Below, in pieces: positions 14,055-19,708 of a stretch of DNA of 64,000 bases. Origin of the DNA: Desulfovibrionaceae bacterium (GTDB lineage Bacteria; Desulfobacterota; Desulfovibrionia; Desulfovibrionales; Desulfovibrionaceae); the NCBI GenBank assembly GCA_910575755.1, contig CAJTFO010000002.1:62001-126000 (forward strand), read 5' to 3'. The notes under the pieces were generated by a model. That model made no database searches, was not told the origin of the DNA, and saw nothing but the letters and a program-made list of their open reading frames with translations. Made by a program: the position numbers and the translations under genes. Numbering within the stretch: the stretch's first letter is position 1; each line of letters starts with the position of its first letter.

Positions 14055-16220
14055 ATGGTTGCCGAGAAGATTGCCGAGACTGATGAAGAGATCATCGATC
14101 TCACCGAGATTGATGAAGAAGTCATCGACCTCACCGAGCTGATAGACCAAAGCGGCGCGGTCGCGGCCGCTCCCGCGCCTGAAGAGGTCAAAGAGGAAGC
14201 GAGTTCCCCCATGCAAAGCCTTGATGAGGATCCGGCCAGGCAGGACGAGAAGGAAATCGACGCCTTGCTGGCCCAGATGGAAGCCCATGACGACGATCCG
14301 GAGGAACTTCTGTCTCCAGAGCAGGCCGCCGCGCCGAGCCACAAGGTTGACCCCAATGAGAAACTCGACATGTCGGGCATGGGGGATGTGGACAAACTGC
14401 TCAGCACGCTGGATATTCCGCCGCAGCCGCGTGAGCGGCATGTGGAGGCCGCGCAAAAGGCCGCTTCCGCGGATCTGGACAGCGCTGTGGACGATCTGCT
14501 CAACGCCAGAAGCGGTTCCGCGCCCAGGCCGCAATCCGAAACCATGCCGGATGCGCATGATCTGCCGACCGCCGCACCGCAGCCTGGGGAACAGACTTTT
14601 ACTGACGATCTGGACGCCCTGCTGGCCTCCGATCTTGATGCGCCCGCGGCGCAGTCCGCTCCGGCCGCCGCGTCCGCCGCTCCGGCTCCGGATCTGGGAG
14701 ATGACGTGGGCGATGATCTGGACGCGCTGCTGGACGATCTTGATCTGAACCCGCCGTCCGCGCCTGCCAGCGCGCCGCAAACGGCAAGCGCCGCCAAGGC
14801 TGCTCCGCAGGCCAGTCCCCGGACGCAGCCCGCTGCGGCTGCCGCGCCCGCCGCCGCTTCGGCTCCGGATCTGGGAGATGGCGTGGGCGATGATCTGGAC
14901 GCGCTGCTGGGCGATCTTGATCTGAACCCGCCGTCCGCGCCTGCCAGCGCGCCGCAAACGGCAAGCGCCGCCAAGGCTGCTCCGCAGGCCAGACCCCGGA
15001 CGCAGCCCGCTGCGGCTGCCGCGCCCGCCGCCGCTTCGGCTCCGGATATGGGAGATGGCGTGGTCGACGATCTGGACGCGCTGCTGGGCGATCTTGATCT
15101 GAACCCGCCGTCCGCGCCTGCCAGCGCGCCGCAAACGGCAAGCGCCGCCAAGGCTGCTCCGCAGGCCAGTCCCCGGACGCAGCCCGCTCCGGCCGCCGCG
15201 CCCGTTGCCGCTCCGGCCCCGGATCTGGGAGATGGCGTGGGCGATGATCTGGACGCGCTGCTGGGCGATCTTGATCTGAACCCGCCGTCCGCGCCTGTCA
15301 GCGCGCCGCAAACGGAACCTGAGACACCGGTCGTCCCGGAGGAGAACGCTGCTGAGATTGAGGCGGATCTGGCCGAGCTGCTGGAAAGCGCCATGCAGGA
15401 AGAGCCCGCCCCGGATGTGCAACCGGATGTGGCGGATACGACGGATCAGAGCGAGGCGGCAGTTATGGACGCAGCCCCCGACCTTGAAGAAAGTGAACCT
15501 GCTCTTTCCGGGGAGAATCCCGAAGCGGCGCCTGCTGGGTCAGAGGAGGCTGTTGCGGCGGAATTGCCCGTACCCCCGGTGGAAGATCCTTTGCTCCTGT
15601 CCGGCGAGGAGGAAAGCGCGCCCGCCGACGCAGAGCGGGACGCAGCCCCCGACCTTGAAGAAAGTGAACCTGCTCTTTCCGGGGAGAATCCCGAAGCGGC
15701 GCCTGCTGGGTCAGAGGAGGCTGTTGCGGCGGAATTACCCGTACCCCCGGCGGCCGCGCCCGCTGGCGAACCCGCCCCCGCAGCGGCGGAATCGGCGCAA
15801 TTGACTGAACTGGCTGAACACAATGCTCGCCTGAGTGAGCATCTTCAGCGTTGCGAAAACGAACTGGCCGAGGCCAAAGCCCGCATTTCGACTCTGGAAA
15901 AGGCCGTGGCAACCCCCGCGGCTTCTCTGGAAGATCTGCTGCGCGAGGGTTCCTCTCTGCATGACCGTTTTGTGGCGCTGATCGCCTCCTCGGTGGGCCA
16001 GGCCCTGAAGGGCCTGGGCGCTCCCGGCCCGGATCAGGCGCTGGAGGAACGTCTGCACAATCTCAGCCTCATGAACAAAAGCGTCTCAGCGCGTCTGGAC
16101 GCTCTGGAAAGCCGGCTGGACACGTTGGAACCCCACTTCAACCAGCAGGTGGACAAAGCCGCCGCTGCCGCGGCGGCGCGGATTCTGCGTGAGGAAATCG
16201 CCAAACTGGTTCAGGGCTAG
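14055..16220 (+). CDS. Acidic Ala/Pro-rich tandem-repeat protein with C-terminal coiled coil
   Basis: 721 residues, no signal peptide or membrane helix, strongly acidic. The N-terminus has two IDLTE-type repeats (residues 13-31). The middle has four copies of a 59-residue unit built around D-DLDALLGDLDLNPPSAP followed by an Ala/Pro/Gln linker, and degenerate versions of the same motif upstream (VDKLLSTLDIPP, DDLDALLASDLDAP). A second pair of near-identical 38-residue segments starts DAAPDLEESEPALSG. The last 150 residues form a coiled coil (LAEHNARLSEHLQRCENELAEA) and a helical domain. Such proteins may act as scaffolds in which each short acidic motif docks a partner. No family recognised. 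The ribosome site is poor. Confidence 0.65.
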   Translation: MVAEKIAETDEEIIDLTEIDEEVIDLTELIDQSGAVAAAPAPEEVKEEASSPMQSLDEDPARQDEKEIDALLAQMEAHDDDPEELLSPEQAAAPSHKVDPNEKLDMSGMGDVDKLLSTLDIPPQPRERHVEAAQKAASADLDSAVDDLLNARSGSAPRPQSETMPDAHDLPTAAPQPGEQTFTDDLDALLASDLDAPAAQSAPAAASAAPAPDLGDDVGDDLDALLDDLDLNPPSAPASAPQTASAAKAAPQASPRTQPAAAAAPAAASAPDLGDGVGDDLDALLGDLDLNPPSAPASAPQTASAAKAAPQARPRTQPAAAAAPAAASAPDMGDGVVDDLDALLGDLDLNPPSAPASAPQTASAAKAAPQASPRTQPAPAAAPVAAPAPDLGDGVGDDLDALLGDLDLNPPSAPVSAPQTEPETPVVPEENAAEIEADLAELLESAMQEEPAPDVQPDVADTTDQSEAAVMDAAPDLEESEPALSGENPEAAPAGSEEAVAAELPVPPVEDPLLLSGEEESAPADAERDAAPDLEESEPALSGENPEAAPAGSEEAVAAELPVPPAAAPAGEPAPAAAESAQLTELAEHNARLSEHLQRCENELAEAKARISTLEKAVATPAASLEDLLREGSSLHDRFVALIASSVGQALKGLGAPGPDQALEERLHNLSLMNKSVSARLDALESRLDTLEPHFNQQVDKAAAAAAARILREEIAKLVQG
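14691..15312 (+). repeat. 177-bp in-frame tandem repeat, about 3.5 copies
   Basis: Repeat units begin at 14691, 14868, 15045 and 15222, each exactly 177 bp (59 codons) apart. The fourth is partial. Copies differ by only a few bases, so the array is recent or is homogenised by recombination. It lies within the acidic repeat protein gene. Confidence 0.92.
15468..15752 (+). repeat. Near-identical duplicated segment with 171-bp period
   Basis: About 114 bp starting at 15468 (gacgcagcccccgacc) recurs at 15639 with hardly any change, an offset of 171 bp (57 codons). It is a second, independent in-frame duplication in the same gene. Confidence 0.88.
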
Positions 16221-16275: not shown

Positions 16276-16325
16276 AAACGGGATTTGACTGGCTGTACGC
16301 TGTTGCAGCCAGTCAAATCCCGTTT
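16276..16325 (+). terminator. Strong intrinsic terminator
   Basis: A 20-bp perfect stem (16276-16295 with 16306-16325), a 10-base loop, and T5 at the 3' end. It separates the acidic repeat gene from the downstream GrpE-like/Hsp70-like pair and shows they are different transcripts. Confidence 0.92.
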
Positions 16326-16483
16326 TTGCGAAGGCGCGGCATCAGAAAGAGCGCTTTCGGGGCTTGCCACAGATCCCGGGTCTTGCCTGAGCATCTGGCC
16401 GGAATTAGTATATATACGGCATCTGGCGGTTCGCCCGCGCAAAAGGGATGTCCTCGTTTCACACTTTCGGCACGGGAGCTTTC

Positions 16484-17560
16484 ATGGAGATACAGGAAAA
16501 AAGACGTGAGCTTGAAGAAAACGCCGCGCGGCTGGCCGACGCCGCTGTGGAGAAAATAGCTTCCTTTCCCGGAGAGTACGCGCAGCACCAGCGGATTTTG
16601 TATGACCTGAAGACAGAGTTGGCGGATCTGGGCGCGTCGACGCGCGGCGCTGCCCTGCCCGACGAGCTCAGATGGCGGCTGGCCGGCGACATGCCGGACT
16701 TCTCCACCGAAACCCTGTACCAGAAGCGCTCTTCCCTCTGGGCTATGGGCGGCATTGTCTTCTTCGGCTATCTGCTGGGCGGCCTTTTGTCCACAGTGCT
16801 GGGCTGGCTGGGCATGGGCGGGGACATCATCCGGGTGGTCGCGGTCTGGGCCATGTTTTATGTTTCGGAATATCTTTCGGCTAATCCCGGAGCGCGTTTG
16901 CGGGTGCTGGCCTTTCTGGGGCTCGGAACCCTGGCGGGATTCGCCGCGGGCCTCATGTCGGGCATGCTGCGTCTGACCTCCTGGGCCGGCTTCAAGCGGG
17001 CGGTGTTCGGCAGCGGACAAGCCGCGCCGGGCCTGCTGAAACGCTGCTATCTGCTGCTGGGGGCCGCCTTTCTTTTTGTTTTTCTGTCCAAAAAGGTCAC
17101 AGCCCTGGATGTAACGGCCTTCAGACATGCGTTGCGCCGGCAGGCGGCGGCGCGCATACGCTGGCTGCTCGTCTTTTTTGAGGAGCTGAACCGCCGCGAC
17201 GCCGAACTGGCCGAGCTGAAAAACAGCTCCGGTTCTGGCGCGGATTCCATGAAATGCCCCAAAAAGGATTGCCTTCTTGCGCGGGATGTCATCGGCATGC
17301 TGGATAGCTTTGACGCGGACGCCAGGGCCTTTCTGGCCGAAAAGCTGGCCGCCGTGGGCTATGAAACGGATTCCGTCCGGGATGATTTTCTGATCTGGAA
17401 CGGCGCGGAGCACGAAAAACTGTACGATATGGTGGGCCTGGTCAGGGAGGGGGACCGCTGCCGCGTTCTCAGGCGGCACTACCAGGCGGGCGGAAGGATC
17501 GTCCGGGGCTATGTGCAGCGGGACGCCGGGGAACAGGAGCCTTCACGGGAGCGCCCATGA
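16484..17560 (+). CDS. Membrane protein with C-terminal GrpE-like domain
   Basis: 358 residues from the ATG at 16484 (GGGAG six bases upstream; an in-frame ATG at 16448 has no such site). An N-terminal coiled coil (1-50) leads into four predicted membrane helices (about 84-107, 115-131, 140-161, 187-202), then a long charged helix (208-246), a CPKKDC pair, and a C-terminal domain (about 268-347). That domain reads like the beta domain of the nucleotide exchange factor GrpE. It has a G-E motif, then H310-E311 where GrpE has HQ/HE, and a GGRIVRGYVQR stretch where GrpE has NGRTIRAAMVTV. The next gene is an Hsp70-like ATPase, overlapping by 4 bases (ATGA). I infer a membrane-anchored exchange factor for that partner. 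The GrpE match is by eye. Confidence 0.55.
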   Translation: MEIQEKRRELEENAARLADAAVEKIASFPGEYAQHQRILYDLKTELADLGASTRGAALPDELRWRLAGDMPDFSTETLYQKRSSLWAMGGIVFFGYLLGGLLSTVLGWLGMGGDIIRVVAVWAMFYVSEYLSANPGARLRVLAFLGLGTLAGFAAGLMSGMLRLTSWAGFKRAVFGSGQAAPGLLKRCYLLLGAAFLFVFLSKKVTALDVTAFRHALRRQAAARIRWLLVFFEELNRRDAELAELKNSSGSGADSMKCPKKDCLLARDVIGMLDSFDADARAFLAEKLAAVGYETDSVRDDFLIWNGAEHEKLYDMVGLVREGDRCRVLRRHYQAGGRIVRGYVQRDAGEQEPSRERP

Positions 17561-19533
17561 AAACTATCGGCATTGATCTCGGCACCGCCAATACCTACCT
17601 TTATGGACGCGACAGCGCTTCGGCTGAACCGCTGCCGCTGATCCTGCCGCGCATCAGCGATGAAAAGGGCTGCATAGCCACAGTGGTGTTGTATGAGGAC
17701 AGCAAGCCCCTGCTCATCGGCAACATCGCGGAAAGCGAATACTATGCCAACCGCGCCGCCATGCCCGCGCGCACGCTGCGCAGCCAGTTCAAGCCCGAAA
17801 TCGCCCATGCCGACTCCGGGGCCATACTGTGGATGACCGATTTTCTGCGCCAGTTGCGCGCGGCGCTGCCCCAGGGCGTGCTGGAACCTGAAAGCCGCAT
17901 TTATGTAGGCATGCCCTCCGGAACCAGGGAGGATTTCAGCCTCAATCTGTCCCGGTGCTTCACGCAGGCCGGCTGGCCCCGCCCCGCCTTTGTCAGAGAG
18001 TCGGACGCGGCCATGATTTCCTGCCTTCAGTCCGGGGTTCTGGACATTGACGATCTGGAAAACAGGGCGCTCATTCTGGATTTCGGCGGCGGAACCTGTG
18101 ATTTCACCAGCCTGGAAAGCATGGATGTGCTTCAGAACGGCGGGGACCCCCTGTTGGGCGGGCGTCTGTTCGATGACCTGCTGTTTCAGGTGTTCTGCCG
18201 CGGCGATGAACTCTTCCGGCGGGACGCGCCCGGTTGCGGCTATGAATATTACCTGCACTGGATTCAGTGCAAGGCCGAAAAGGAGCGCTTTTCGGACGCC
18301 GTGGGCCTGGACGGGGCGGACGGGGTGAGCCTGCACGCCGTATGGCATGACGCCCGCGGCAACAGACGGGACGCCTATGTGCACAACTATACGCGCGAGG
18401 ATTTCATCAGGGATGCGGAAAATTACGTCGCCACGGACAGTCTGCGCGCCATGCTCAGCCAGTATGCGGACAGGGGAGGCCTGAGCCCGCAGGCCAGGGA
18501 TCTGCTGCAGGGCAGGCGCATCGGCCTGCTCTCCTGGTTCAAAAGCATTCTGGCCGGCATTGACGGTCGCCGGGATATGGCGAAAGTCATTCTCACGGGC
18601 GGCAGCAGCCGCTGGTTTTTCGTTCAGGATATGGTCGGCGAGCTTTTTCCCGCCGCCCGGTTGGCCATGAGCCGCCGCACCTATGAAGACATCGCCTACG
18701 GCCTGGCCCTCTATCCTGTCCTTGCCGAGTCGCATGCCGCGGCGCGGGCCCTTCTGGGTGAGAAAATCGAGGCCTTTGCGGCTCAGGCCTGCGAGGTGGC
18801 GCGCAACATCGTGGCCAAGCACGCCGCCTTTGCCGTGCGTCTGTGCACGGAGCGCATTGTGGACCGGGATATCATGCCCGTGCTGGAAGAGGCCCAGAAA
18901 GCGCGGAAAACCGTGGAGGAAGTGGAGCGGGCCTTTGTGGAAAACATCCGCAACGATACCGGGCTGATGGCCGTCATCAGGGAAAAGACCGAAGCCCTGC
19001 GCGAAGAAATCCAGTATGAATTGCAGCAGCGTTTCAGGGCCTGGCTGCGCCAGAACGGCGTTCCCCTGGCGCCGCGCTTTGAATTTCCCGCGCGGGCGCT
19101 CAGCAAGGACTTTTTCGACGCCGTCAGCGTCAAGGTATCACGTCTGGCTTTTCTGAACATCATGGATTTCATGGCTTCGGCGGTGTTGCCGGCCATTGCC
19201 GCCTATGCCGTGGCCGGGGCCATAGCGCACACGGGCGAGCCTGTTTCCGCCGTGCTGGGCGGCGGCGCGGCCTTTGCGGGCGTCTGGGGCCTGGGAAAAG
19301 TGGCCAAGGGCTTTTTGTGGAAGCGCAGGCTGCCCGGTTTTTTCCTCACGGAAAGCAACAGGCGAAAAATTGTGCAGAAAAACAAGGCCTATATTGAAGC
19401 GGCGCTGGGCAAGGCCTTTGCCGAGGTTCAGGCCAGCCTGGCGGATGATGCGGAACGCAGACTGCGCCGTGCCCTTGACGCCATGCTGTCCCGGCTGACA
19501 GTGCTGAATCAGGTGCGCTGCGCGCGACCGTAG
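17557..19533 (+). CDS. Hsp70-like ATPase with C-terminal membrane segments
   Basis: 658 residues. The N-terminal 380 are an Hsp70/actin-fold nucleotide-binding domain: phosphate-1 IGIDLGTANTYLY (4-16), the connect segment FVRESDAAMISC, phosphate-2 LDFGGGTCDF (174-183) and the adenosine motif LTGGSSRW (about 345-352). The usual beta-sandwich peptide-binding domain and EEVD-type tail are not apparent. Instead there is a long helical region (about 390-520) and two hydrophobic segments (about 530-590) ending in a basic KGFLWKRRLPGFF stretch, then a final helical bundle. It should sit on the membrane. It is coupled by ATGA overlap to the GrpE-like membrane protein, which supports an Hsp70-exchange-factor pair. 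It differs from DnaK and HscA; function unknown. Confidence 0.7.
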   Translation: MKTIGIDLGTANTYLYGRDSASAEPLPLILPRISDEKGCIATVVLYEDSKPLLIGNIAESEYYANRAAMPARTLRSQFKPEIAHADSGAILWMTDFLRQLRAALPQGVLEPESRIYVGMPSGTREDFSLNLSRCFTQAGWPRPAFVRESDAAMISCLQSGVLDIDDLENRALILDFGGGTCDFTSLESMDVLQNGGDPLLGGRLFDDLLFQVFCRGDELFRRDAPGCGYEYYLHWIQCKAEKERFSDAVGLDGADGVSLHAVWHDARGNRRDAYVHNYTREDFIRDAENYVATDSLRAMLSQYADRGGLSPQARDLLQGRRIGLLSWFKSILAGIDGRRDMAKVILTGGSSRWFFVQDMVGELFPAARLAMSRRTYEDIAYGLALYPVLAESHAAARALLGEKIEAFAAQACEVARNIVAKHAAFAVRLCTERIVDRDIMPVLEEAQKARKTVEEVERAFVENIRNDTGLMAVIREKTEALREEIQYELQQRFRAWLRQNGVPLAPRFEFPARALSKDFFDAVSVKVSRLAFLNIMDFMASAVLPAIAAYAVAGAIAHTGEPVSAVLGGGAAFAGVWGLGKVAKGFLWKRRLPGFFLTESNRRKIVQKNKAYIEAALGKAFAEVQASLADDAERRLRRALDAMLSRLTVLNQVRCARP

Positions 19534-19670: not shown

Positions 19671-19708
19671 GCAGATATTCCTTGCATAGTTATGCAAGGA
19701 ATATCTGC
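19671..19708. repeat. Near-perfect 38-bp palindrome
   Basis: Arms of 18 bp (19671-19688 and 19691-19708) with only GT between them; the sequence starts GCAGATATTCC. No T-tract follows. It lies in the 273-bp gap after the Hsp70-like gene, which also holds a small GCCTTT-GAA-AAAGGC hairpin near 19580. It could be a transcript end or an operator for the next gene. Confidence 0.6.

Follow-up and report, generated by a model that had tools for sequence, protein, structure and literature searches.

A membrane protein with a putative GrpE-like tail encoded beside an Hsp70-type ATPase in Desulfovibrionaceae: a candidate membrane-bound relative of the classic chaperone machine

Hsp70 proteins are usually seen as soluble chaperones that are defined by a peptide-binding domain and by soluble co-chaperones, and they carry a conserved hydrophobic interdomain linker of the VLLLD type. 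We analyzed a two-gene locus in a stretch of 64,000 nucleotides (the window) of contig CAJTFO010000002.1 (assembly GCA_910575755.1, Desulfovibrionaceae bacterium), which encodes a membrane protein with a putatively GrpE-like tail (A) and an Hsp70-type ATPase (B). Compared to DnaK-GrpE and mortalin-GrpEL1, B shares the nucleotide-binding domain of Hsp70 and the catalytic positions in it, and the predicted tail of A shares the long helix, helices and beta domain (PMC10803776, PMC11685456). Unlike these systems, B has no detected beta substrate domain and no VLLLD-type linker (0 of 17 B sequences), and A carries four membrane segments and lies outside Pfam GrpE. The cyanobacterial DnaK1-DnaJ3-GrpE system is likewise dedicated to an envelope machine; according to the available part of its description, it serves type IV pili with the genome's single GrpE and a DnaJ, and no membrane-anchored exchange factor is described in that part (PMC9239167). 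No publication on the A-B pair was among the matches listed from the one open-access library searched.

The genes of A and B overlap by 4 nt at an ATGA junction, and both reading frames and the overlap are as the initial annotation of this DNA had described them. An alternative in-frame ATG for A lies at 16448, while the closest relatives favor the start at 16484. Relatives include two Desulfovibrio metagenome-assembled genomes from goat caecum, whose B proteins are 70% and 67% identical. We give an even chance to the hypothesis that the two proteins form a coupled pair, in which B is an Hsp70-type ATPase with a membrane hairpin and A is its membrane-tied, dedicated nucleotide exchange factor.

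The head of B is a nucleotide-binding domain with conserved catalytic positions. Its translation holds the intact Hsp70 motifs DLGTANT, DFGGGT and GGSSR, as first annotated, and it matches Pfam HSP70 at 23.3 bits (cut-off 20.6). The actin fold with its phosphate and adenosine motifs is present in this domain, with MreB as a close second assignment. A beta-sandwich peptide-binding domain, which had also not been recognized before, was not found in B: its AlphaFold2 model contains no strands of at least 3 residues after residue 372, and both listed DnaK alignments stop near profile position 392. Two hydrophobic segments had been proposed for the C-terminal half; one of them (residues 529–560) is clear by hydropathy, while the second is weaker and appears as a helix at 563–582 in the model. 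A hydrophobic hairpin was also recognized by eye in the translations of distant relatives (L115, L116, L154 and L155).

The hairpin raises an alternative that we consider improbable, in which B is dynamin-like: the hairpin would be a paddle on a helical trunk, an Hsp70 ATPase would replace the GTPase and the protein would remodel or tether membranes. The Leo dynamin-like GTPases (PADLOC LeoBC) share helices around a hydrophobic hairpin, and their profiles are weakly matched by some B tails, matches that remain unexplained. However, B contains an Hsp70-type head in place of a GTPase. The HHalign score of its tail is no better than that of the reversed control and no solved dynamin was matched; we therefore did not accept a kinship of the tail. 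The LeoBC profile PDLC03841, searched at an E-value of 1e-3, matched 247 of 247 genomes and 14 of 14 control genomes. Because most of the rows listed match through the GTPase part only (about positions 75–200), this search does not settle the kinship of the B tail, and because all genomes and controls are matched, weak matches are not readable as defence genes.

Protein A has four hydrophobic segments by hydropathy with overlapping windows grouped (about residues 83–111, 115–133, 139–162 and 181–210), in agreement with its initial description as a four-helix membrane protein. In the AlphaFold2 model, the tail forms a long helix (210–248), two further helices (264–275 and 278–290) and short strands (302–346), with a local predicted distance difference score (pLDDT) of 88–92 at residues 211–240, 73–84 at 301–350 and 45 at 251–260. 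The GrpE order of elements, a long helix followed by bundle helices and a C-terminal beta domain, is thus present in the predicted structure.

We compared the tails of A with GrpE sequences by HHalign, using GrpE genes from relatives (found in 26 of 26 genomes; 29 matches with loci) in sets of 14 sequences (alignment A4) and, later, 18 sequences, two of them divergent. The alignment of 14 A proteins with A4 was collinear, with a probability of 12.4%, or 7.8% with the tail alone. With 15 tails, the score was 25.5 and exceeded all of 200 column shuffles (maximum 23.1), compared to 15.2 for the reversed control and at most 18.1 for windows of B. With 19 tails and 18 GrpE sequences, the scores were 27.0 for all rows, 25.6 for the 15 near rows and 27.5 for the 4 distant rows, while the maxima of 150 shuffles were 17.8 (all rows) and 19.7 (distant rows), the near rows not being shuffled separately. 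The register of the match was identical in the near and distant sets. The last helix together with the beta domain scored 22.6 (maximum of 100 shuffles, 16.2), and the tail helices alone scored 13.8. On these scores, a remote yet real similarity between the A tail and GrpE is supported but not proven.

The motifs that were first put forward as evidence for GrpE are not conserved, and we rejected this argument. The HE and GGR motifs had been said to share the spacing of GrpE, which was not confirmed: in the only GrpE compared, that of the source genome (L053), the count from the H as far as the R in the second motif is 29, while in A it is 28. Among 19 aligned A tails, the H is present at that site in 12, and GGR occurs only in the A of the window.

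Several results weigh against the coupled-pair hypothesis. A has zero matches in Pfam, NCBIfam and PADLOC at an E-value up to 1, Pfam GrpE (PF01025) is matched by 0 of 15 A members at an E-value up to 10, and no GrpE was found among sequences of solved structures at the same limit. There is no GrpE among the best 50 of 285 Foldseek matches of A, nor among the 50 matches listed by the VIA fold search; the helical and membrane portion of A takes up both lists, which barely probe the tail. The A model is monomeric and middling (pLDDT 69; predicted TM-score 0.40), and whole-tail HHalign probabilities against GrpE are only 6–23%. The beta domain alone scores 16.85, within the range of 100 shuffles (maximum 17.8). 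The most distant A (L154) has no HHalign match to GrpE by its tail alone, and its addition lowers the score to 23.3 (maximum of 150 shuffles, 18.9). For B, every NCBIfam match is far below its cut-off, and one distant relative matches MreB at 31.4 bits (cut-off 27), above its HSP70 match (22.8 bits, cut-off 20.6), so that an actin-like label would suit the head as well.

The missing GrpE matches of A, the unconserved motifs, the score of the beta domain alone and the unmatched tail of the most distant A would also suit a mere membrane anchor or scaffold for an actin-like or Hsp70-like ATPase, its beta domain being unrelated to GrpE and the resemblance coming from a similar layout of helices and short strands. 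We regard this alternative as possible, though on the doubtful side. It does not sit well with two divergent subgroups of A that match GrpE in one register and exceed all shuffles run, with a modeled order of helices and strands that agrees with GrpE, or with a partner whose Hsp70-type head is a natural target of GrpE.

The two genes are inherited together. In counts that include the source genome itself, A was found in 15 of 101 relatives, and in 18 of 297 genomes at the level of the class and 23 of 288 at that of the family. At an E-value of 1e-40 or better, B was found in 24 of the 288 family genomes, namely the 23 with A and one more (G223), where B reaches the contig end and the position of A falls outside the sequence. 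A adjoins B in 22 of 23 family genomes, and in the other (G056) both pieces lie at contig ends; homologues occurring apart, which would have spoken against the pairing, were not seen in the 288 genomes. The 4-nt overlap is kept in 15 of 17 loci, and the other two have gaps of 3 nt and 27 nt, the latter in the genome with a broken A. Broken copies comprise an A with an in-frame stop (G032) and a B split over two frames (G007), at L029 ~8350 and L028 ~10800. In phylum samples, 3 of 297 genomes match the A profile, and 4 of 395, including a doubtful one, match the B-tail profile; in G647, the B-tail match is weak (18.6 bits) and was treated as chance. One of the three A-profile genomes (G593), from another family and the sole match among 17 genomes of that family, encodes A (355 aa) and B (658 aa) with a 4-nt overlap, and a hydrophobic stretch rich in glycine was again recognized by eye in its B. 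The A-B pair is a co-inherited unit that extends to distant relatives. The central proposal of the initial annotation, in which a membrane protein whose tail resembles GrpE is coupled to an Hsp70-like ATPase without a substrate domain, draws support from the predicted element order, the profile comparison with its controls and this co-occurrence.

A patchy spread (23 of 288 family genomes) and the weak LeoBC and LeoA matches of B tails would also suit an antiphage defence system, a role suggested at the outset for which we found little support and which we consider very unlikely. The LeoBC and LeoA matches are limited to the helical tail, and HHalign does not support them. One lineage keeps the pair in a constant, ordinary neighborhood, where 9 of 16 testable loci have a hydantoinase-type gene downstream of B. 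A phage search with one B (L154) gave no match, and a plasmid search gave none for two A proteins, the A of the window not among them, or for the B of the window; two other B proteins matched plasmids at the level of the head only. Both the defence and the dynamin-like readings have less support than that of A as the exchange factor of B.

Plasmids offer related arrangements. On Pseudanabaena plasmid pPg_01 (L158), a gene that matches Pfam GrpE at 43.4 bits overlaps the beginning of a gene for a divergent 'Hsp70 family protein', as in the A-B pair. It differs in that its 186-aa GrpE has no counterpart of the membrane part of A, its Hsp70-like protein has 528 aa and the A profile matches this single GrpE at 12.5, a score equaled or beaten by 22 of 100 shuffles, which again counts against A as a GrpE relative. 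Against other plasmids, this GrpE found only itself. On a Polaromonas plasmid (L160, 3624–6493), a 123-aa gene with a sub-threshold GrpE match (13.5 bits, cut-off 25.8) lies directly upstream of an 'Hsp70 family protein' gene, which is followed by an 'ATP-binding protein' gene; this is maybe another dedicated Hsp70 unit. Given these two arrangements, it is plausible in general that a divergent Hsp70 has its own exchanger encoded upstream, and by analogy the membrane form may plausibly be a variant of that theme. On a Paenarthrobacter plasmid (L159, 2865–7109), an Hsp70-like gene lies between two same-strand hypothetical genes that nearly touch it, and the upstream one has no Pfam match.

The features of the locus are collected in Table 1. 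The upstream terminator that was initially annotated corresponds to an inverted repeat, a likely terminator, of two perfect 20-bp arms with 10 nt between them and a run of five T at the end; it is absent from the list of a terminator scan that allows loops of 3–8 only. Upstream, a 721-aa protein (14055–16217) has several near-identical Ala/Pro/Ser-rich repeats in its translation and a coiled-coil-like end, and its Pfam matches, several of them to coiled-coil families, are all sub-threshold. Downstream, a perfect palindrome (19671–19708; 18-nt arms, 2 nt between) separates B from the hydantoinase-type gene. That gene is lacking in seven of the testable loci, and a functional link was rejected; in L028, the contig ends. 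Where present, it is usually followed by trmL-like, cobD and acrB genes. In the two distant genomes whose stretches are longer, A and B adjoin a putative tgt, read by eye. Since neighbors vary among loci, only A and B constantly travel together in the loci seen.

Table 1. Positions of the A-B locus features within the window
Feature	Position	Strand	Description or basis
Gene A	16484..17560	+	358 aa; helical N-terminus, then four hydrophobic segments (residues 83-210) and the putative GrpE-like tail
Putative GrpE-like tail of A, ~residues 205-358	17096..17557	+	AlphaFold2 model and GrpE profile comparison
Gene B	17557..19533	+	658-aa Hsp70-like ATPase; 4-nt overlap with the end of A
Nucleotide-binding domain of B, ~residues 1-392	17557..18732	+	
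Helical C-terminal half of B, ~residues 393-658	18733..19530	+	AlphaFold2 model
Hydrophobic hairpin of B, ~residues 529-582	19141..19302	+	Hydropathy and AlphaFold2 model
Inverted repeat, likely terminator between upstream gene and A	16276..16325	.	Sequence

A coupled pair could work as follows. In B, long helices and a hairpin that inserts into the membrane would take the place of the client-binding half, and four helices would tie A, its dedicated exchange factor, to the membrane. The A tail, with its long helix, helices and small beta domain, would dimerize and open the nucleotide cleft of B to release ADP, as GrpE does on DnaK. ATP cycling would then move the helical arm of B at the inner membrane, where it would work on a membrane protein or lipid. 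We infer each of these elements: the exchange activity, the contact between A and B, the membrane insertion of B, the membrane work and its client. More tentatively, the pair might be a two-protein, membrane-embedded Hsp70 motor made of a head, a helical arm and a hairpin without a client domain, whose exchanger is fixed in the membrane, restricting exchange to that place, and whose stroke is directed at lipid or a membrane protein instead of unfolded chains.

The A-B pair may be a relative of the classic chaperone machine that is bound to the membrane. If so, the Hsp70 engine would here be separated from chaperoning, with the ATPase and a GrpE-like exchanger kept, the client domain dropped and both proteins placed at the membrane, and the pair would offer a simple system for asking what an Hsp70 engine can drive.
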